From assembly GCF_002968295.1 (NCBI RefSeq), contig NZ_CP134399.1, positions 558,001-622,000 of the forward strand: a stretch of 64,000 nt of DNA, given 5' to 3'. The notes under the pieces were generated by a model, which ran no database searches, was not told the origin of the DNA, and saw only the letters and a program-made list of their open reading frames with translations. The position numbers were made by a program, and so were the translations under genes. Position 1 is the stretch's first letter. Every line of letters starts with the position of its first letter. This DNA comes from Mycobacterium sp. ITM-2016-00317 (lineage in GTDB: Bacteria; Actinomycetota; Actinomycetes; Mycobacteriales; Mycobacteriaceae). Shown in pieces: positions 5,096 to 14,819 of this stretch.

Positions 5096-7627
5096 TCAGT
5101 CGCGGTCCGGCGAGTCCATCAGCGCGCGCAGCATCGAGAGCAACTCGGAGCGGGATTCGGCGCCCAGCCGCCGCCGGATTCGGGCCACGTGATGCTCGAC
5201 GGTCTTCGCCGAGATGAACAGATGCGACCCGATATCGCGATACGGCAGGCCTTGCAGGAGCAGTTCGGCGACCTCGCGCTCCCGGTCGGACAGGTGTGCT
5301 GCGGCGGGCCGCGCCGGCCGCGGGGGTGCCGCGGCGGCGGCGGCGGATTCGCCGTCGGATGCGGTGTCCGGCACGTCCGCGGCGACGGTGTGTTTCAGGT
5401 CGCGGGCCAGCTGCAGCATCGCCTGCGAGATGCGCGGGTCGTCGGTCTGGAGGGCGGCCTGTCCGGCCAGCCGGGTCGCGTCCCAGGTGTGGCCGAACTG
5501 TGTGAGCGCGCGGGCGGCGGCCGTGACCTCGTCCACCTCCACCTGGTTGGCCAGCACCTTGAGCCAGGTCCGGCCCGCGGTGGCCAGCGCGCGGGCGAAG
5601 GGAGAGTGCGGCGCCGCGGCGGTCAGCGCCTGCCCGTGCGGGGCCACCGCGTCGGGTGCATTGGCGAGGATGCCCGCGTGGACGCCGGCCCAGTGCAGCG
5701 GCACCGCCCACAGCACCGGATCGCCGAGCGCGCCGAGCAGCGCGAACAGCTCGTCGAGGACGTGGCGCAGCCGGTCGACTTGGCGCATCCGCGCCGCGGC
5801 GATCCAGAGCTCGCCCACCGGCAGCACCATGAACACGTCGACCGAGCACTCGGCGAGCACCTCCACGGCCGAATACCAGTGCTTCTGCATCGCGCCGCTG
5901 TCACCCGCGCGCCGCGCCACCCCGGTCTGCAGCGCCGCGGCCCACAGCGCGTCGCGGCGGTGCGGATCGGCCACCCCGCCCGGCCGCGCTGCGGCGGCCG
6001 CGGCGTGCAGCCGGCCGTCCTGCATGGAGGCCCAGCCCTGCAGCAGCCGGTGCCGCAGCGTGACGAACGCGACATCCGCCGGCGGGCGCTGGGCATCGGC
6101 GTGCACGGCGCGCCCGGCCACACTGCGGGCACGCACCGGATCGCCGGCGTGCAGCGCGGCCAGCGTCACCAGCGCGGCAGGGGAGTCGGGCAGGGTGGTG
6201 GCCAGGCCCAGGTCGGTGCCGAGGGCCTGACTCAACTTCGCGACCGCAACGGGATAGGGCTGCGCCAGCGTCATCACCAAGCCGTCGGTGAGGCCGGCCG
6301 CCGCCCGGGCGGTCGAGGTCGGTGGGCCCGGAGCAGGCGTGGCGGCGACGGTCCGGGCCGCCGCGGCGTCGCCCGCCGCGACAGCCGCGATGGTGGCCGC
6401 GGCGCCCAGCACCGCATCGGGGACCGGCCCGAGCCAGCCGAACAGCCCGTGCGCCTGTGCCGCGCTGCCGTCGTGCAGCGCGATACTCGCCGCGATCCGG
6501 ACCGCCGCGGCCCGTTCGCCCGGGTCGGGGGCGCTCAGCAGGTCGTCGGCGATCCGGCCTGCGGTGGCACAGTCCCCGGTCAGCGCCAGCGCGTCGGCCA
6601 GCTGCGCACTCGAGGTCGTCGCGCCGGCGTCGGCCGCGGCCCGGTACAGGCGCGCGGTGCGGGCCGGATGGTCGCGGGCGTGGGCGGCCAGATCACCCAG
6701 CGCGGCGGCCAGCCGTTCGTCACGCAGCCCGTGCTCGGCCAGCCGCAGGGCCAGATCGGCTGTCAGCGTCCGCAATTCGAGCTGGGACACCAGCACCGAC
6801 ACTTCGATGTCGTGATGTCTTGCCGCGCCGACGATCTGGGCCACCGCGTGGTGCATCGTGTGCCGAAATGCCTGCGGATGCGACGGCTCGATCAGCCCGC
6901 TGGCGCGGGCCTGGTCGACGCTGGCCAGCGCGTCCTCGGAGGGCAGGCGGAGTGCGGCGGCGACGTCGTCGGGGCCGAGATCGGCACTCAGCGACGCCAC
7001 CACGAACGTGTCCAGCAGGCGTTCGTCGCAGCCACGCAGCCGTTCGATGAGGCCGAACCGGGCCGCCCGGCGCATCGCCGCGTCGCCGTCGGCCGCCGAG
7101 GCGAGAACCGGCCGCAACAGGAACGGCAGCCCGGCCGTCGTGGACATCAACGCGCGCAGCAGTTCCGGCGTCGCCGGCACCCCGAGTGCGGCAGCGGAGA
7201 CCCGGCCGACCTCGACCGTGGGGAGAGGGCCCAGCGTCACGGCCGGCCGCTCACGTTCCAGCGCGGTGACGAGGTCGCGCAACGGCCGGTGGTGGGCCAG
7301 TGGTTGGGTGGCGATCACCACCGTCGCCGTCGGGTCGGCGACCAGTTCGGTGAGCTGTGCGAGTTCGGCGGCGTCGAGCAGGTGGGTGTCGTCGACCACC
7401 GTGGCGGCCTCGGCCGGGTCGCCGGACCCGCGCGGGCGCGACGACACAGGGCGCCCAGCCGCGCGCAACACCGCGCGCACCGCCGTCAGCACCGTGGACT
7501 TACCGGTGCCGACCCCGCCTGTGACGACGAGCTTGTGCGCCGCGTGCGGAGCTGTCTCGACCGCCGCGACGGCCTCCCGCGCTGCAGGGGGCAGATCGGT
7601 GTGTCGCGGCGTCGCCGGACCGGTCAT
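5096..7627 (-). CDS. iniR: MalT/LuxR-type ATPase regulator, IniR-like activator of iniBAC
   Basis: About 843 residues, matching Rv0339c (832). A P-loop (VVTGGVGTGKSTVL, near residues 33-46) and Walker B (VVDDTHLLD) form an NTPase domain, followed by a helical repeat (TPR-like) middle and a C-terminal LuxR helix-turn-helix (LSDREREVAELLLQG and ISAKTVEHHVARIRRRLG). Rv0339c has been described as IniR, a trehalose-responsive MalT-family regulator of iniBAC. The start is set at ATG 7627, eight bases after the stop of the Hsp70-like gene, indicating a two-gene unit; longer open frame upstream is antisense-like sequence inside that gene. Likely target sites are the ATTAGGGG boxes at 9545-9584 and 10242-10280. 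Confidence 0.85.
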   Translation of the reverse strand: MTGPATPRHTDLPPAAREAVAAVETAPHAAHKLVVTGGVGTGKSTVLTAVRAVLRAAGRPVSSRPRGSGDPAEAATVVDDTHLLDAAELAQLTELVADPTATVVIATQPLAHHRPLRDLVTALERERPAVTLGPLPTVEVGRVSAAALGVPATPELLRALMSTTAGLPFLLRPVLASAADGDAAMRRAARFGLIERLRGCDERLLDTFVVASLSADLGPDDVAAALRLPSEDALASVDQARASGLIEPSHPQAFRHTMHHAVAQIVGAARHHDIEVSVLVSQLELRTLTADLALRLAEHGLRDERLAAALGDLAAHARDHPARTARLYRAAADAGATTSSAQLADALALTGDCATAGRIADDLLSAPDPGERAAAVRIAASIALHDGSAAQAHGLFGWLGPVPDAVLGAAATIAAVAAGDAAAARTVAATPAPGPPTSTARAAAGLTDGLVMTLAQPYPVAVAKLSQALGTDLGLATTLPDSPAALVTLAALHAGDPVRARSVAGRAVHADAQRPPADVAFVTLRHRLLQGWASMQDGRLHAAAAAARPGGVADPHRRDALWAAALQTGVARRAGDSGAMQKHWYSAVEVLAECSVDVFMVLPVGELWIAAARMRQVDRLRHVLDELFALLGALGDPVLWAVPLHWAGVHAGILANAPDAVAPHGQALTAAAPHSPFARALATAGRTWLKVLANQVEVDEVTAAARALTQFGHTWDATRLAGQAALQTDDPRISQAMLQLARDLKHTVAADVPDTASDGESAAAAAAPPRPARPAAAHLSDREREVAELLLQGLPYRDIGSHLFISAKTVEHHVARIRRRLGAESRSELLSMLRALMDSPDRD

Positions 7628-7635
7628 CGCCGCGG

Positions 7636-9477
7636 TCAGGCGCCGGGGTCGGGGATGACGGTCGTGATGATCGGATCGGGCGGGTCGACGGGTTCCGGTA
7701 CCGGCTCGACCGTGGTGGGCGCAGGCGGGGGTGTCGTCGTCGGAGGTGGCGTCGTCGGCGGCGTGGTGGTCGGGCGCGTGGTCGTGGTCCGCGTCGTCGT
7801 CGTGGTCGGCGACGTGGTGGTGGTCGTGGTGGTCGTCGTCGTCGTGGTGGTCGGCGAGGTGGTGGCCGTCGTGGTCGTCGTGCTGGCCGGCGGCGGCGGA
7901 GGCGGCGGTGGCGGCTGGCTGACCGTGGTGGTCGCGACGCCGTCGGGTCCGACGGTGACGGTGGTGACCGGCGGCGGCAACTCCACCGGGGCGGTCTCGC
8001 TCGGCGGGGTCGCGGTCTCGGTGACCGTGCCCGGATCGGTCTCCGAGCTGGTCAGGGTCACCGCCAGCCCGCCCACGGCCAGCAGCGCCGCGGCGGCCGC
8101 CGCGCCGAACAGCACCGGCGGGCGCTTGTACCAGGGCAGCGGCGCCAGATCGTCGGCGTAGACCTCGTCCTGCGGGGTGAAATCCATCGCCGGACGCGCG
8201 GCGGTGCCCGCCGGGTCCGCATAGGCCGCGGCGGCGGTGTAGTCCCCGCCGGTGTAGGGCAACGGATCTCCGGCGTCGTCGTCCTGCGACCACGCCAGCG
8301 CGCGGAACGTCGCCGACGGCGCGCCGTCACCGGCGGACTGGGTCGCCGCCTGGCCGCCCACGCCTGCCGCCCACGCCGCGGGTCCCATCGCGGTGGGCAC
8401 GTCGGCCGCGGGCGCCATCCCGGTGGGCGCATCGGCGACCAGGCCCTGGTTGGCGACCAGCGCCGCGCCCGCAGCGGCGTCCAGCATCGGGGCCGGCGTG
8501 GTGATGACCGGTGCGCGCAGGCGTTCGGACAGCCGCTGGGTCACCAGCGGGATGGCCGCGCCGCCGCCGACGGTGGCCACCGCCGAAACGTCGGCGGCCG
8601 CAATGCCGTTGCGCTGCAACGTGTCCTCGATGGCGGAGAGCAGTCCGGCCAGCGGCTCGGCGATCAGCTGCTCGAGCTCGGGCCGGGTGACCCGCACGTC
8701 GGAGGTGAACGAGGGCAGCGCGACCGGGACCGCGGTGGCCGTCTCGGCGGAGAGCCGTTCCTTGGCCGCCCGGCACTCGTCCCGCAGACGGGCCAGCGGG
8801 CCGACCGCCGCGGTGCCCGCGGTGCCTTCGGGATCGGGGTTCTCGGCGGCTGCGATGCCGGCGAGCACGTGGTCGAGCAGCGCCTGGTCGATCGCGTCGC
8901 CGGAGAACTCGGGGTAGCGGACGGTCTGGCCGATGATCGCGCCGCCGGCCGCGGCGTCGGCCAGCGTGATGCTGGACCCGCTGCCACCGAGGTCGACCAG
9001 CACGATCGCGCCCTGGTTCGGCAGGCCCGGCGCGGTGCGCAGCGCGGCGAGTGCCGCTGTCGCGTCCGGGATCAGCGCGGGCGGGACACCGCCGGGGGAC
9101 AGGTACGGCACGGCGCGGAGTGCGCCGCGCAGCGCGCCGACGGTGCCGGGGCCCCAGTGCGCGGGCACCGCGACGGTGACCGGTGCGCCGCCGCCGACCA
9201 AGCGTGCGAGGGTGTCGAGAGCCTGGGCCAGGGCCTGCTCGCCCCGGTGGGCCGAGCCGTCCGCGGCGACCAGCGGGACGGGGTCGCCCACCCGCTCCAC
9301 GAAGCCGGTCAGCACCAGCGCGGGTTCGGTGGAGCCGGAGATCTCGGCGGCCACCCCCAACTCGGGAGGGCGGTCGCCGAAGAGATTGAGGATGGATCGT
9401 CGCGTCACGGGCGCGCGACCCACGCGGGCCGCGACCAGGTTCGTCATGCCGATCGACAACCCCAGCGGTTCAGTCAT
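7636..9477 (-). CDS. Membrane-anchored Hsp70-like (actin-fold ATPase) protein with Thr/Pro-rich exterior tail
   Basis: 613 residues. The N-terminal ~380 residues resemble a shortened DnaK/actin-like ATPase (LGLSIGMTNLVAARVG phosphate-1-like start, IVLVDLGGSGSSITLAD phosphate-2-like, VATVGGGAAIPLVTQRL adenosine-type motif), without a recognisable DnaK substrate-binding domain. A variable linker leads to the juxtamembrane motif PWYKRPP and one transmembrane helix (about 455-475). The last ~138 residues are almost only Thr, Pro and Ser, including a run of 13 Thr and one of nine Pro. Orientation should put the ATPase in the cytosol and the tail outside, where O-mannosylation is plausible. It is the first gene of a unit with iniR. 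The molecular role is unknown. Confidence 0.8.
   Translation of the reverse strand: MTEPLGLSIGMTNLVAARVGRAPVTRRSILNLFGDRPPELGVAAEISGSTEPALVLTGFVERVGDPVPLVAADGSAHRGEQALAQALDTLARLVGGGAPVTVAVPAHWGPGTVGALRGALRAVPYLSPGGVPPALIPDATAALAALRTAPGLPNQGAIVLVDLGGSGSSITLADAAAGGAIIGQTVRYPEFSGDAIDQALLDHVLAGIAAAENPDPEGTAGTAAVGPLARLRDECRAAKERLSAETATAVPVALPSFTSDVRVTRPELEQLIAEPLAGLLSAIEDTLQRNGIAAADVSAVATVGGGAAIPLVTQRLSERLRAPVITTPAPMLDAAAGAALVANQGLVADAPTGMAPAADVPTAMGPAAWAAGVGGQAATQSAGDGAPSATFRALAWSQDDDAGDPLPYTGGDYTAAAAYADPAGTAARPAMDFTPQDEVYADDLAPLPWYKRPPVLFGAAAAAALLAVGGLAVTLTSSETDPGTVTETATPPSETAPVELPPPVTTVTVGPDGVATTTVSQPPPPPPPPPASTTTTTATTSPTTTTTTTTTTTTTSPTTTTTRTTTTRPTTTPPTTPPPTTTPPPAPTTVEPVPEPVDPPDPIITTVIPDPGA
7685..7935 (-). 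repeat. Low-complexity Thr/Pro codon tract
   Basis: On the plus strand this is a dense array of gtggtggtcg-like units, on the coding strand ACC/ACG Thr codons and CCG/CCA Pro codons of the Hsp70-like protein tail. It has no conserved repeat unit with unique spacers, so it is coding low complexity. Such tracts are prone to length change. Confidence 0.8.
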
Positions 9478-9544
9478 GTGGGCTCTTTCCTGTCTGGACC
9501 GCTGAATACCTTAGCGGCTGAGATCGCCTCGGCCGGGGAACCTG

Positions 9545-9584
9545 CCCCTAATGGCGTCGACCCCCTAATCTTCCATCCCCTAAT
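9545..9584. promoter_or_regulatory. Three direct CCCCTAAT (ATTAGGGG) boxes, candidate IniR operator
   Basis: CCCCTAAT occurs three times in 40 bases at 9545-9552, 9562-9569 and 9577-9584, all in one orientation, 17 and 15 bases apart. They sit in the divergent region between the Hsp70-like/iniR unit and the IniB-like gene. MalT-family activators bind arrays of short G-rich asymmetric boxes, so these are the best candidates for IniR sites. Function is inferred. Confidence 0.65.
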
Positions 9585-9637
9585 GCCCTCCTTGCGGAGT
9601 TGGGCTGTTCACCGATCCGGAACGCAGTCGACGCGCT

Positions 9638-9643
9638 TAGCAT
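9638..9643 (+). promoter_or_regulatory. Candidate -10 element, leaderless start of IniB-like gene
   Basis: TAGCAT lies seven bases before the ATG at 9650, and no Shine-Dalgarno sequence precedes that ATG. Transcription starting at the ATG (leaderless mRNA, common in mycobacteria) would explain both. The last CCCCTAAT box ends 54 bases upstream, nearly the same distance as in the iniB promoter. Confidence 0.4.
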
Positions 9644-9649
9644 CGAGCC

Positions 9650-10129
9650 ATGGCGAACGCACTGCTGGACTTCGTGATGACGCTGGTGCGGGATCCCGAC
9701 GCCGCCGCGCGCTATGCGGCCGATCCCGCCGGGGCGCTCACCGACGCCGGTCTGACCGAGGTGACCAGCGCTGACGTGCAGAACCTGATCCCGGTCGTCA
9801 CCGAGTCGCTGTCGCACAACGCGCCGGCCGCCCCGGCGGACAACGTGTGGGCCAGCGGCGCGGCGACCGCCGCCTTCGACGCGTTCGACCTGCCTGATGA
9901 GCCGCTGCCCCAGCGCGTGGTCATCGACGCCGAAGATCCCGCGCCGGAGACCGTCGACCTGCTCGATGTGCCGACAACGGTGCAGGTGCACGACCCGGTG
10001 ATCGACGCGCCGGTCGACGACCAGATCGATGTGGCTGCACCGTTCGAGCTCGGCGAGGACTGGCACACCGTTGCCGGGTTCGACGCCGGCGACGACGACA
10101 CGGCCTCCGGCTTCGACCTGTTCGACTAG
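9650..10129 (+). CDS. IniB-like N-terminal domain protein
   Basis: 159 residues. The first ~50 residues match the IniB N-terminus position by position: NA(LI)(LI)DF near the start, an R-x-P pair, ADPxGALxDAGLxxVT. The rest is acidic (Asp/Glu-rich, net strongly negative) and lacks the Gly/Asn repeats of IniB. Its position between iniR and iniB is that of Rv0340. There is no signal peptide or membrane segment. The shared domain and shared upstream boxes suggest the protein is made together with IniB under cell-wall stress. Function is unknown. A strong terminator follows, so it is probably a single-gene transcript. Confidence 0.85.
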   Translation: MANALLDFVMTLVRDPDAAARYAADPAGALTDAGLTEVTSADVQNLIPVVTESLSHNAPAAPADNVWASGAATAAFDAFDLPDEPLPQRVVIDAEDPAPETVDLLDVPTTVQVHDPVIDAPVDDQIDVAAPFELGEDWHTVAGFDAGDDDTASGFDLFD

Positions 10130-10158
10130 CGCGCGGGCGGCCCACCGGCACCTCCACC

Positions 10159-10191
10159 ACCCGCAGGAACCCCGGTTCCTGCGGGTTTTTT
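10159..10191 (+). terminator. Rho-independent terminator after the IniB-like gene
   Basis: A perfect 12-bp stem (10159-10170 with 10175-10186), a four-base loop and a run of six T at 10186-10191. It separates this gene from the iniB promoter. Confidence 0.9.
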
Positions 10192-10241
10192 GGTGTGCGC
10201 TCCGCGCCGGAACGCCAGCCCCAGACCGACCCCCGGTATAC

Positions 10242-10280
10242 CCCCTAATCCCCTACTGGGGGCGGCTGTGAACCCCTAGT
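10242..10280. promoter_or_regulatory. CCCCTAAT-type boxes upstream of iniB
   Basis: CCCCTAAT (10242-10249), CCCCTACT (10250-10257) and CCCCTAGT (10273-10280) repeat the motif found upstream of the IniB-like gene, same orientation. The last box ends about 55 bases before a -10-like CATAGCGT at 10333-10340, the spacing seen in the other promoter. Likely IniR-responsive; inferred. Confidence 0.6.
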
Positions 10281-10390
10281 GAACCCCGCGCGGGGATAGG
10301 CGCGAGCCCCGTTTCCAGGCTGTCGCGACGTCCATAGCGTGGTGTTCAGCTCGCCGGGATGCACGGCGAAACACCAGAAAGGGCAAAGTT

Positions 10391-11362
10391 ATGAACGCCA
10401 TCATCGACTTCATCCTCGACCTGTTCCGCAGCCCCGCGTCGGCGGCGACGTTCATCGCCGACCCGGACGGCGCGCTGCGTGACGCCGGCCTGCCGAACGT
10501 GACCGCCGCACAGCTGGCGTCGGTGGCCGCCACCGCCGCTCCGGCCGGCTACGCGCTCGGCGGCGGCGATCCGATCGTCGGCCTGCAGCGCGCGGTCGCC
10601 GACCACCACCAGCTCGCGTCCAACTTCGCCTCCCCGTTCTCCCCGCAGACCTCGTGGGCCCCGACCTTCGCCCCGGAGACCAACGTGCCGGTGGCCAGCC
10701 CGGTCCAGGACGCCGGCGCCAACGCCCAGAACGGCGGGTTCAACCTCGGCTTCGGCGACATCACGTTCGGCGACAAGACCAGCAACACCGCGACCAACGG
10801 CGGCGTCGTGGTCGACGGCGACAACGGCGGCGACATCGTCAGCGGTGACGGCGCCGTGCTCGGCGACGGCAACACCACCAGCAACGGCGACATCCTGGCT
10901 GGCTCCGGGTCCAACGTCGTCGTCGGCAAGGACAACGAGGTCGAGGACAACTCGAAGACCGCAGGCGGTGACCTGATCACCGACAACGACGCCCCGGTGC
11001 TCAACGACGTCGACACCAGCGGTGGCAACGGCGGCGGCGCCGACGGTGGCGGCAGCCTCATCGGCATCGGCGGAGGCAACGCGGTCGGCGGCTCCGGCGG
11101 CAACGGCGGCGGCATCATCATCACCGACAACGACGTAAACACCGGAACCCAGATCGACGGTGATGTGGGCAGCCGCAATGTCGAGGACAGCTCGGTGCAC
11201 ACGTCGGTGCAGACCGACATCTCGACCTCCGAGTCGAACGTCGGCTCGGGCAACGTGACCGACACCGACCTGTTCTCGGGCAACGTCACCGGCATCGAGA
11301 CGGGAATCGACACCGACATCGCGTCGCACAACGACACCCTGGCGGCGCTGGACGCGTTCTGA
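10391..11362 (+). CDS. iniB: IniB, isoniazid/ethambutol-inducible Gly/Asn/Asp-rich protein
   Basis: 323 residues. An N-terminal helical IniB domain (about 1-50) is followed from about residue 110 by a Gly/Asp/Asn/Thr-rich region with loosely repeated G-D-N/D-I-V and S-G-N-V units, which could form a beta-solenoid-like surface. It is shorter and more Asn/Asp-rich than my memory of M. tuberculosis IniB (479, Gly/Ala-rich). No signal peptide is evident. Start ATG 10391 has AAAGGG nine bases upstream. First gene of iniBAC, whose transcription rises when cell-wall synthesis is inhibited. A large hairpin separates it from iniA. Confidence 0.9.
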   Translation: MNAIIDFILDLFRSPASAATFIADPDGALRDAGLPNVTAAQLASVAATAAPAGYALGGGDPIVGLQRAVADHHQLASNFASPFSPQTSWAPTFAPETNVPVASPVQDAGANAQNGGFNLGFGDITFGDKTSNTATNGGVVVDGDNGGDIVSGDGAVLGDGNTTSNGDILAGSGSNVVVGKDNEVEDNSKTAGGDLITDNDAPVLNDVDTSGGNGGGADGGGSLIGIGGGNAVGGSGGNGGGIIITDNDVNTGTQIDGDVGSRNVEDSSVHTSVQTDISTSESNVGSGNVTDTDLFSGNVTGIETGIDTDIASHNDTLAALDAF

Positions 11363-11451: not shown

Positions 11452-13267
11452 ATGACGCAGCCTGCCGACCCGGTGATCGTCGAGCTGATCGACCACGCCG
11501 GCAAGATCGCGCACGCCCAGGGGCGCGGCGATCTGGCCGATCGCCTGGAGCGGGCCAGGACACGCCTCGGCGACCCGCAGATCCGGGTGGTGATCGCCGG
11601 GCAGCTCAAGCAGGGCAAGAGTCTGCTGCTCAATTCGCTGCTCAACATGCCCGTCGCGCGGGTCGGGGACGACGAATCGACCGTGCTGCCCACCGTCGTG
11701 TCCTACGGCGAACAGCCCTCGGCCCGGCTGGTCCTGGCCCGGCCCGACGGCCAGGAACCCGAACTCGTCGAGATCCCGACCGCCGACCTCGGCACCGACC
11801 TGCGGCGGGCACCCCAGGCCCGCGGCCGTGAGGTACTGCGCGTCGAGGTGAACGCGCCGAGCCCGCTGCTCAAAGGCGGCCTCGCGTTCGTCGACACCCC
11901 GGGCGTCGGCGGCCACAGCCAGCCGCACCTGTCGGCGACGCTGGGGCTGCTGCCCGACGCCGACGCGATGCTGATGATCAGCGACACGAGCCAGGAGTTC
12001 ACCGAGCCGGAGATGACCTTCATCCGGCAGGCGCTGGAGATCTGCCCGGTCGCGTTGCTCGTCGCCACCAAGACCGACCTGTACCCGCACTGGCGGCAGG
12101 TGGTCGACGCCAACCGCGCGCACCTGCGGCGCGCAGGCATCGACACACCGCTGGTCCCGGTGTCCTCGACGCTGCGCGGCCACGCCGTCGCGCTCAACGA
12201 CAAGGAACTCAACGAGGAGTCGAACTTTCCGGCGCTGGTGAAGTTCCTGTCCGACGAGGTGCTGGGCGGCGCCGAGACCGGGTCCGCGAACAGGTGGTCG
12301 GCGAAGTGCGCGCGGCCGCCGAACACCTGAAGCTCGCCGCGGAGTCCGAACTGTCGGCGCTCAACGACCCGCACACCCGGGAACGGCTCACCGCCGACCT
12401 GGAACGCCGCAAGCAGGAGGCGCAGGACGCGCTGCAGCACACCGCGCTGTGGCAGCAGGTGCTCACCGACGGCATCGCCGACCTGACCGCCGACGTCGAC
12501 CACGACCTGCGACACCGGTTCCGCACCATCACCTTTCACACCGAGCAGGTGATCGACGGCTGCGACCCCACCCAGAACTGGGCCGCGATCGGCGCCGAAC
12601 TGGAGGACGCGGTCGCCACCGCCGTCGGCGACAACTTCGTGTGGGCCTATCAGCGCGCCGAGGCACTGGCCGCCGAGGTCGCCCGTACGTTCCGCGAGGC
12701 CGGACTGGACGCGGTGCGGATGCCGTCGATCGACGCCCGCGAGATGGGCGCCGACGTCGGCGAATTCCGGTCGGTGGCCCAACTGGAGGCCAAGCCGCTG
12801 AAGTTCGGGCACAAGGTCGTCACCGGGATGCGGGGCTCCTACGGCGGCGTGCTGATGTTCGGCATGCTGACGTCGTTCGCGGGGCTGGGCATGTTCAACC
12901 CGTTGTCGCTGGGGGCGGGCTTCGTGCTGGGCCGCAAGGCCTACAAGGAGGACATGGAGAACCGGATGCTGCGGGTGCGCAGCGAGGCCAAGGCCAACGT
13001 GCGGCGCTTCGTCGACGACGTCGCGTTCGTGGTCGGCAAGGAGTCCCGGGACCGGCTCAAGGGAATCCAGCGTCAGCTCCGTGACCACTACCGCGCGATC
13101 GCCGACCAGACCACCCGCTCGCTGAACGAATCGCTGCAGGCCACGCTCGCCGCGGCCAAGCTGGAGGAGACCGAACGTCCGGCCGGGTCAGGGAACTCGA
13201 ACGTCAGCTCGGCATCCTGCGGCAGGTCCTCGACCACGCGCAGAGCCCGGACGCGCAACCTCACTAA
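11452..13267 (+). CDS. iniA: IniA dynamin-like GTPase (frame broken twice in this sequence)
   Basis: Bacterial dynamin-like protein of the iniBAC envelope-stress operon; IniA is known to act at membranes. Visible: P-loop GQLKQGKS (about residue 49), G3 DTPGVGGH, G4 ATKTDLYP, a long helical stalk, and a hydrophobic hairpin GGVLMFGMLTSFAGLGMF expected to insert in the membrane. The reading frame changes at about 12276-12284 and again at about 13183-13187. In each case adding one C to a CCGGG run restores the conserved sequence (into VREQVVGEVR and VRELERQLGILRQ, ending TAA 13265-13267). Repaired length is about 605 residues against 640 in M. tuberculosis. Separate translation of the pieces would give proteins ending at 12330 and 13304. 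Sequencing error is more likely than pseudogenisation. Confidence 0.85.
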
Positions 13268-13325
13268 GCTCGAACGGTCAGCAGCCGAGCGACCCGGACG
13301 GTGAACCCTGAGCACCAGCGACCGC

Positions 13326-14819
13326 GTGCGGGCGATCCTGGGCGGCACCATCGCCGCCTACCGGTCCGATCCCGCCTACCGCGCCCGGCCGGACGTGCAC
13401 GCCGAGCTCGAGCGGATCGGGCGCAGGCTCAACGAACCGATCCGCATCGCGCTGGCCGGAACCCTGAAGTCCGGTAAGTCGACACTGGTCAACGCGCTGG
13501 TCGGCGACGAGATCGCCCCGACCGACGCCACCGAGGCGACGCGCATCGTCACCTGGTTCCGGCACGGTCCCACCCCGAAGGTGACCGCGAACCTGCGCGG
13601 CGGACGGCGCGCCAACGTGCCCGTCATCCGCGGCCGGACCGGACCGGCCCGCGGCCTGACCTTCGAGTTCGCGGGCCTGGACGCCGACGCCGTGGTGGAC
13701 CTCGACGTGGAATGGCCCGCGGCCGAACTGGTCGACGCGACGATCATCGACACCCCCGGCACGTCGTCGCTGTCCCGCGACGTCTCGGCCAGGACCCTGC
13801 AGCTGCTGGTACCAGCCGACGGGGTGCCCCGGGTCGACGCGGTGGTGTTCCTGCTGCGCACGCTCAACGCCGCCGACATCGCACTGCTGCGCCAGATCGG
13901 CCAGCTGGTCGGAGGGTCGGCCGGGGCGCTCGGCGTGATCGGCGTGGCATCGAGGGCCGACGAGATCGGCGCGGGCCGGATCGACGCGATGATGTCGGCC
14001 AAGGACGTCGCGCAGCGCTTCACCGCCGAGCTCGAACGCACCGGCATCTGCCAGGCCGTCGTGCCGGTGTCGGGGCTGCTCGCGCTCACCGCGCGCACGC
14101 TTCGCCAGAGCGAGTACGTCGCGCTCAAGAAGCTCTCCGAGATGGAGCCGGCCGAGCTGGCCAAGGCGATGCTGTCGGTCGACCGGTTCGGCCGCGAAGA
14201 CCCGCAGTTGCCGGTCGGCGCAGCGGCCAGAGCCGAACTGCTGGACCGGTTCGGCATGTTCGGCATCCGGATCGCGATCGCGGCGCTGCGGGCCGGGGTC
14301 GGCGACTCGGTGGCGCTGGCCGACGAACTGCTGGAGCGCAGCGGGCTGCTCGCGCTGCGCGAGGTGATCGACCAGCAGTTCGCGCAGCGCTCCGACCTGC
14401 TCAAGGCGCACACCGCGATGCTGTCGCTGCGCCGGTTCGTGCAGCAGAATCCGATCTACGGCACGCCGCGGATCCTCGCCGACATCGAGCCGTTGCTGGC
14501 CGACACCCACGCGTTCGAGGAACTGCGGCTGCTGAGCCAGTTGCGGTCGCGGCCCACCACTCTCAACGACGACGAGATGGCCTCACTGCGGCGGCTGATC
14601 GGCGGCTCGGGCACCGGCGGCGCCAGCAGGCTGGGCCTGTCACCCGACGCGCTCGACGACGGTCCGCGGGCCGCGTTCGCCGCCGCCCAGCGGTGGCGCC
14701 GGCGCGCCGAACACCCACTCAACGACCCGTTCACCGCAAGGGCGTGCCGGGCCGCGGTACGCAGCGCCGAAGCGCTGATCGCGGAGTACGCCCGGGCTCG
14801 ACTTGAGACGGGCGGCTAG
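13326..14819 (+). CDS. iniC: IniC dynamin-like GTPase partner
   Basis: 497 residues from GTG 13326, close to IniC of M. tuberculosis (493). GTPase motifs are P-loop AGTLKSGKST, G3 DTPGTSS and G4 ASRADE, then a helical stalk; no clear membrane hairpin. It pairs with IniA in a two-partner dynamin system. The conserved N-terminal residues STSDRVRAIL begin six codons earlier, at a CTG (13308), so the natural start may be that CTG or a miscalled base. The stop overlaps the convergent gene by four bases. Confidence 0.92.
   Translation: MRAILGGTIAAYRSDPAYRARPDVHAELERIGRRLNEPIRIALAGTLKSGKSTLVNALVGDEIAPTDATEATRIVTWFRHGPTPKVTANLRGGRRANVPVIRGRTGPARGLTFEFAGLDADAVVDLDVEWPAAELVDATIIDTPGTSSLSRDVSARTLQLLVPADGVPRVDAVVFLLRTLNAADIALLRQIGQLVGGSAGALGVIGVASRADEIGAGRIDAMMSAKDVAQRFTAELERTGICQAVVPVSGLLALTARTLRQSEYVALKKLSEMEPAELAKAMLSVDRFGREDPQLPVGAAARAELLDRFGMFGIRIAIAALRAGVGDSVALADELLERSGLLALREVIDQQFAQRSDLLKAHTAMLSLRRFVQQNPIYGTPRILADIEPLLADTHAFEELRLLSQLRSRPTTLNDDEMASLRRLIGGSGTGGASRLGLSPDALDDGPRAAFAAAQRWRRRAEHPLNDPFTARACRAAVRSAEALIAEYARARLETGG

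Follow-up and report, generated by a model that had tools for sequence, protein, structure and literature searches.

Which DNA sequence does IniR, the activator of the mycobacterial iniBAC operon, recognize at its targets? The operon is widely used as a reporter of mycobacterial cell-wall damage, and no site for its activator was found in the literature that we searched. The accessible part of Boot et al. 2017 (PMC5760070) reports that IniR overexpression induces iniBAC, that an IniR peak in chromatin immunoprecipitation sequencing (ChIP-seq) lies directly upstream of the operon, that trehalose activates iniBAC, and that IniR oligomers form without trehalose. We addressed the question in Mycobacterium sp. 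ITM-2016-00317, in a stretch of 64,000 nucleotides (the window; bases 558001–622000 of the single-contig 6.06 Mb genome, NZ_CP134399.1) in which iniR (5096–7627, minus strand) adjoins iniB* and iniBAC. Our analysis suggests that short boxes of the form CCCCTAA(T/C), which read RTTAGGGG on the other strand, are very probably operators of IniR in a MalT-fashion arrangement.

Six boxes, all in the same orientation, stand at two promoters of the window. Three exact copies on the minus strand, the distal box A1 (9545–9552), A2 (9562–9569) and A3 (9577–9584), precede iniB* (9650–10129, plus strand). The second array, also on the minus strand, precedes iniB (10391–11362, plus strand) and consists of the exact box B1 (10242–10249) and two variants with one mismatch each, B2 (AGTAGGGG, 10250–10257), in tandem at 8 bp, and B3 (ACTAGGGG, 10273–10280). 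The exact form searched, ATTAGGGG, occurs 4 times in the window against 0.16 expected, with at least 4 copies in 0 of 100 shuffles, and 7 times in the whole genome, 4 of these at the two ini promoters (binomial 7.6e-15 for 736 bp). The other three exact copies (genome positions 939235, 1535005 and 2281115) are solitary within their 3-kb loci. All six boxes listed in a preliminary description of this DNA were confirmed. With up to one mismatch, boxes number 10 in the window against 10.3 expected by chance, without excess, so that AGTAGGGG and ACTAGGGG rest on position and conservation rather than on sequence alone. A chance origin of the boxes is rejected for the exact copies, not for isolated one-mismatch matches.

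The adjacent regulator gene, which the preliminary description had called iniR, encodes a STAND ATPase/LuxR-type activator that matches family NF038181 over its full length (1403 bits, cut-off 750, residues 12–838), carries a C-terminal LuxR-type head (GerE domain, residues 778–832, E 2.8e-15) and is 79% identical to IniR of Mycolicibacterium austroafricanum. The IniB-like gene of that description belongs to the Rv0340/iniB* family and has an IniB N-terminal domain (NF038176, 157 bits; NF038175, 79 bits), as does the product of iniB (NF038175, 67.6 bits). The locus corresponds to the one described in the accessible part of PMC5760070, with the same regulator and the same order of genes, including iniB* and a dnaK-like gene; that part names neither iniB* nor the Hsp70-iniR unit nor any unlinked IniB gene as a target.

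Conservation within the genus was analyzed in loci found by an IniR scan (the best 80 of 164 relatives). Removal of a duplicate (L020 = L021) and of nine loci whose fetched stretch lacks iniB* left 70 loci, 66 of which also include the start of iniB or, if no iniB was detected, as in L058, that of iniA. When all 7-mers upstream of each gene were compared with the rest of the same loci, the most enriched was CCCCTAA in both cases: 161 copies in 70/70 loci upstream of iniB* and 125 copies in 63/66 loci upstream of iniB, with 0.10 expected in each. The 70 loci contain 155 exact boxes, 150 of them in sense orientation in the two promoters, none reversed there, and 5 elsewhere. The preliminary description had named non-conservation in relatives as the outcome that would speak against its proposal; we looked for it and found the boxes conserved instead.

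The positions of the boxes are conserved together with their sequence. We aligned the promoters, those of the window included, on a second conserved block, CACCGAT for iniB* (68/70 loci, against 3.35 copies expected) and CCCCGTT for iniB (58/66 loci, against 1.48 copies expected); anchoring failed for 1/71 iniB* and 3/67 iniB promoters, and each -35 block has its first columns predetermined by the anchor. Relative to the block, boxes of the anchored promoters start at -33 (67/70), -48 (63) and -65/-66 (57) upstream of iniB*, and at -65/-66 (61/64) and -57/-58 (50/64) upstream of iniB. In 66/70 iniB* and 64/64 iniB promoters, a TANNNT hexamer begins at +28 from the block; for iniB this spacing is partly built in, because the iniB anchor, unlike that of iniB*, also required a -10-like string 22–38 bases downstream. 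Counted from this -10, boxes start at -93/-94, then at -76 (iniB*) or -85/-86 (iniB), and then at -61/-62, with box spacings of 8, 11, 15 and 17–18 bp. The places -28, -61 and -93 are 31–34 bp apart, about three helical turns.

The two promoters of the window match this geometry. Boxes start at -93, -76 and -61 from the iniB* -10, TAGCAT (9638–9643, plus strand), and at -93, -85 and -62 from the iniB -10, TAGCGT (10335–10340, plus strand). Both -10 candidates of the preliminary description were retained, and its distance of 54 to 55 bases from the last box was corrected to 53 (iniB*) and 54 (iniB). A search of 9400–10450 for a sigma-70-like -35/-10 pair gave no match. A CCCC run at -105 of iniB (10230–10233, plus strand) is also conserved, with columns of 0.76–0.98 in 49 non-redundant iniB promoters. 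In L058, where no iniB was found and the upstream region was measured from iniA, a tandem box (~7325–7400) lies too near iniA for the usual -10; it is perhaps a remnant of iniB loss.

A position weight matrix (PWM) trained on one promoter recovered the box places of the other. It also scored highly at the C-rich block at -28 from the -10, over the -35 position (CACCGATC, 9610–9617, for iniB*; CCCCGTTTC, 10307–10315, for iniB; both plus strand), where the held-out z-scores, calculated against mononucleotide shuffles with relatedness ignored, were 12.8 (iniB*) and 12.6 (iniB). Together with the conservation of CACCGAT and CCCCGTT, this suggests that the block is possibly a degenerate box. High scores were also obtained at the -10 itself (z 10.6 and 19.0), at a reverse half-box at -42 of iniB (15.8) and at several other places (7–10). 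Since other C/G-rich places score as well, the degenerate box is a reading of the block and not proof.

The column pattern of the boxes bears on the possibility that they work as G-quadruplexes of the G-rich strand and not by binding a protein. The accessible part of PMC5515968 includes the promoter of M. tuberculosis Rv0339c among putative G-quadruplexes, with a sequence in which both GTTAGGGG and ATTAGGGG occur. In the iniB* boxes at -76 and -61, however, the TAA columns (0.92–0.98) are conserved as strongly as the C-run (0.94–1.00) and the spacers are not conserved, and the place of the boxes relative to the -10 is fixed. In iniB promoters this comparison is blurred by two registers; at the -62 place, TAA is lost in most of the 49 non-redundant promoters and CCC (columns -61 to -59) is invariant. 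We consider a G-quadruplex function very improbable and favor a protein site.

If IniR reads the boxes, they are expected to follow iniR from genome to genome. A strict double box (ATTAGGGG-N2-30-ATTAGGGG) was present in 14/298 genomes of the order, namely 11 of the 38 genus genomes, counting the present one, and 3 from a different family, and in the 11 genus genomes all matches lie at the iniB* locus. The reversed control gave 2, 2 and 9 matches in 3/298 genomes, two of which belong to the genus. The three matches outside the genus (genus g36; L100, L101 and L102) were rejected as a different repeat like TTTAGCCCCCTAATCGCGATC; their 3-kb loci contain no ini gene. A relaxed pair (RTTAGGGG-N0-10-RTTAGGGG) was present in 107/148 genus genomes, and its reversed control in 9/148 (10 matches). 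In the 59 of these 148 genomes used for three-way co-occurrence, IniR, the IniB domain and box pairs were jointly present in 44 and jointly absent in 15 (Fisher 2.5e-14, relatedness ignored); pairs thus occurred in 44/44 genomes with IniR and 0/15 without. IniR exceeded the family cut-off in 43 of the 44 and was split across two contigs in the remaining one (G300), and the best score in the other 15 was at most ~50 bits.

The pair matches also point to a specific class of gene. Among the 82 matches in the 44 genomes (overlaps counted apart), 79 sit 75–173 bp before an IniB-domain gene in the correct orientation. Two of the other three lie just behind iniR (G107 and G319), and in G107 a second Hsp70-like gene starts at the match; the third (G299, C1 1442165; L139), at a proline-rich reading frame, is unexplained. 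CCCCTAA was found within 420 bp upstream of 91/96 IniB-domain genes, a set that includes two below the family cut-off, and its reversed form upstream of none. The 8-bp tandem is present at all seven IniB-domain genes that have no second IniB gene in their vicinity.

Could the boxes be read by another protein, such as MtrA, HpoR, InbR, Lsr2 or an unknown factor, with IniR binding elsewhere in the promoter? Conservation by itself cannot name the binder, and both MtrA (PMC2945938) and HpoR (PMC13413693) are reported on the iniBAC promoter in the accessible parts of these papers. Against such a reader, the boxes track IniR in 59/59 genomes, and among seven module proteins scanned, IniR alone has a DNA-binding domain match. 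We also scanned the last 200 bases upstream of 71 iniB* and 67 iniB promoters for the sites of the two reported proteins. HpoR-like sites (at most 2 mismatches) were present in 0/71 iniB* and 3/67 iniB promoters, the MtrA 9-mer (at most 1 mismatch) in 1/71 and 3/67, and the exact MtrA 7-mers in 6 and 2 of the 71 and in 1 and 1 of the 67, while CCCCTAA was present in 71/71 and 64/67. HpoR and MtrA sites were accordingly rejected as an explanation, being not conserved in these promoters; their loose matches in the window are fewer than in shuffles. We regard a different reader as unlikely and retain IniR.

The boxes extend beyond the genus. The IniB domain was found in 133/298 genomes of the order and in 32/66 genera. 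Twenty distant loci from 16 genera, hand-picked from the 107 out-of-genus genomes with a match, contain IniA in 19/20, IniC in 19/20, an Hsp70-like gene in 15, and an IniR match in 19/20 with 31–46% identity over the best segment; in L266 and L270 iniR is placed otherwise. The most enriched 7-mer upstream of IniB was again CCCCTAA (23 copies in 16/20 loci, 0.05 expected), and in random windows it occurred in 3 of 4000. TANNNT follows the first box by 60–110 bases in 14/15 loci tested, with boxes at -94/-95, -82 to -86, -74 to -76 or -65/-66. Median identities of the distant IniR proteins were 66% in the helix-turn-helix (HTH) head (19 loci), 33% in the ATPase (11) and 38% in the middle part (19); because LuxR heads are conserved generally, the better-kept head is supportive only. 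The enrichment of one 7-mer in both genus promoters and in the distant loci supports, at the level of sequence, the proposal of the preliminary description that the boxes are likely the IniR site.

The same comparison bears on whether the promoters are alike through gene duplication and shared ancestry only, with boxes that have no present function. The common domain of iniB* and iniB and the relatedness of the loci agree with such an origin. Neighboring alignment columns have drifted, however, and the boxes have not; they persist at the low IniR identities of the distant loci, and they also precede Hsp70-like genes, which are not iniB paralogues. Mere ancestry is hardly credible as an explanation, and we keep to boxes that are in use.

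MalT carries a LuxR-type head on an ATPase and reads short asymmetric G-rich boxes in direct repeat. The MalT-type reading of the preliminary description held for the architecture: IniR has a LuxR-type head, its putative boxes are asymmetric, G-rich direct repeats in one orientation at fixed spacing, and their common G-strand form RTTAGGGGAT contains GGGGAT as the MalT box does. It did not hold for the box itself. MalT boxes are GGGGA(T/G)GAGG, one of them over the -35, according to the accessible part of PMC7567727; the boxes here differ from this sequence, and their spacing (8, 11, 15, 17–18 bp) is also different. With at most 1 mismatch, the T form occurs in 2/71 iniB* and 49/67 iniB promoters and the G form in 8/71 and 3/67; we ascribe the T-form matches in iniB promoters to the tandem junction GGGGATTAGG. 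The MalT box was rejected as the site, being rare in iniB* promoters (2 or 8 of 71). IniR may act in the manner of MalT, through a box of its own. The MalT of Actinoplanes, described in the same accessible part of PMC7567727, is likewise an actinobacterial MalT-like activator with a site overlapping the -35; that site is a palindrome (TCATCC-N5-GGATGA), as opposed to the direct-repeat array here.

The distal box A1 probably serves a divergent promoter. An Hsp70-like gene (7636–9477, minus strand; PF00012, E 3e-18) lies ahead of iniR and divergent from iniB*, and a candidate -10 of the Hsp70-iniR unit, TAAGGT (9508–9513, minus strand), lies 31 bases from A1. An equivalent TANNNT in this direction was found in 46/55 non-redundant loci at offsets 43–46, ~27–31 bases from the distal box. 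Where the adjacent Hsp70-like gene is present, the distal box is found in 62/64 loci and the divergent -10 in 61/64; where it is absent, both are gone in 5/5 scored loci and the other two boxes stay. A sixth locus without the gene (L088) has no scorable block and shows two boxes by eye. These six relatives are, where a species is named, presumably slow growers. The geometry and the fate of the distal box thus back the extension of IniR control to iniB* and perhaps to Hsp70-iniR, which the preliminary description had suggested.

Other Hsp70-like genes were also examined. Where a second Hsp70-like gene lies immediately behind iniR, its promoter has boxes in 13/16 loci; read by eye, most of them stand at -75/-76 and -61/-62 relative to the TANNNT of that gene. 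Downstream of iniC, in the direction of the operon, 22/58 loci, including L011, L012 and L013 (duplicate L020 excluded), carry an Hsp70-like gene. No such gene was seen after iniC in the window, where the next open reading frames (ORFs) are oppositely directed.

The boxes also accompany genes away from the main locus. Twenty stretches around relaxed-pair sites, chosen among the matches listed, comprise 8 main loci, 10 unlinked IniB-domain genes behind a tandem and 2 that are neither. In the ten unlinked iniB promoters, TANNNT lies 93 or 94 from the first box in 10/10 (80–105 allowed), and ACCC or CCCC stands at -28. Unlinked IniB-domain genes behind tandem boxes are found, for example, in L138, L140, L145, L146 and L147, and several occupy open frames of ~790–1030 codons. 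In L135 (G402 C15), a tandem pair precedes a possible extra target, a small non-ini ORF with a secreted-looking product.

We propose that two or three boxes pointing the same way, at about -93, -76 or -85, and -61, would mark an IniR promoter. An envelope-stress signal, trehalose in the published work, would switch on the IniR oligomer, whose LuxR head would read CCCCTAAY in the upstream boxes; the oligomer would then occupy a weak proximal site over the -35 and recruit RNA polymerase in a MalT-like manner. The predicted targets here are iniB*, the iniB operon and probably also, by way of the distal box, the divergent unit Hsp70-iniR; the arrangement would likewise act before the unlinked IniB-domain genes and the second Hsp70-like gene of other species. 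In this scheme we infer the activation of iniB* and Hsp70-iniR by IniR, the proximal box and the mechanics of the oligomer. On a wider scale, we lean slightly towards the view that IniR, Hsp70-like and IniB-domain proteins, and the dynamin pair IniA/IniC belong to an old module for envelope stress that is shared across the order and has a promoter code of its own, with boxes at -93, -76 or -85, and -61 and a weak one at -28. A gene that acquires this code would become part of the regulon, hence the unlinked large IniB-like and extra Hsp70-like genes, and the distal box would be a positive feedback on Hsp70-iniR, absent in species without the Hsp70 gene and box.

Several points tell against IniR operators of this kind. 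CCCCTAA is missing from 3/66 iniB promoters, 3/16 second Hsp70 promoters, 4/20 distant loci and 5/96 IniB-domain genes (two of which keep CCCCTARY), and an exact pair stands upstream of only 72/96 IniB-domain genes. The 44/15 split may reflect few evolutionary events; the six loci without Hsp70 may likewise be one clade, so that the distal box may have been lost just once. At the -28 block, the score exceeds that of other C/G-rich places only to a modest degree (places on the reverse strand reach z 9–16). The contact between IniR and the boxes is itself something we infer from sequence, position, conservation and co-occurrence. In M. tuberculosis, RNA sequencing (RNA-seq) of an iniR mutant showed a change in iniBAC only, and iniR was not induced by drugs, according to the accessible part of PMC5760070. 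The joint loss of the distal box and Hsp70 in six relatives fits the latter observation and, by extension from these relatives, offers a possible explanation of the response of iniBAC alone.

An IniR motif was not found among the titles and abstracts listed in literature searches on IniR, iniBAC, its promoter and Rv0339c; subscription papers lie mostly outside this search, so a prior description of the motif is possible. The iniBAC promoter is said to be the subject of a paper of 2000, in which a motif could be described. The accessible part of PMC5760070 gives no DNA motif, and the word "motif" appears there once, in the references. Among the papers listed for the literal box words, judged by title and one passage each, nothing on ini promoters was found except PMC5515968, likewise accessible in part; in the accessible part of PMC7884335, the word occurs in prpR primers, and this match was set aside. 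Once the operator is defined, the binding of IniR, its signal and the target list become directly testable, and targets can be predicted from sequence alone, namely iniB*, Hsp70-iniR and unlinked IniB genes. The conservation of the boxes shows that the ini module extends past mycobacteria.

Further features of the locus concern its transcription units and the genes behind iniB. Between iniB* and iniB stands a terminator-like stem (10159–10186, plus strand; 12 pairs with a T-rich tail, a kind of site expected 0.4 times in shuffles), and the box arrays therefore probably serve two transcription units. The iniB* -10, TAGCAT, is separated from the ATG by six bases only, and the iniB* mRNA may therefore be leaderless in this species. 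The dynamin-like iniC (13326–14819, plus strand; PF00350) follows iniA, which is broken here into two overlapping plus-strand frames (11452–13304): a first part with a dynamin GTPase match (11452–12330, PF00350) and a second part in another frame (12294–13304), assigned by position with no family match. In 12/12 relatives checked, iniA is a single ORF of 602–615 codons, and the split is a frame change, which may be genuine or may stem from the assembly.
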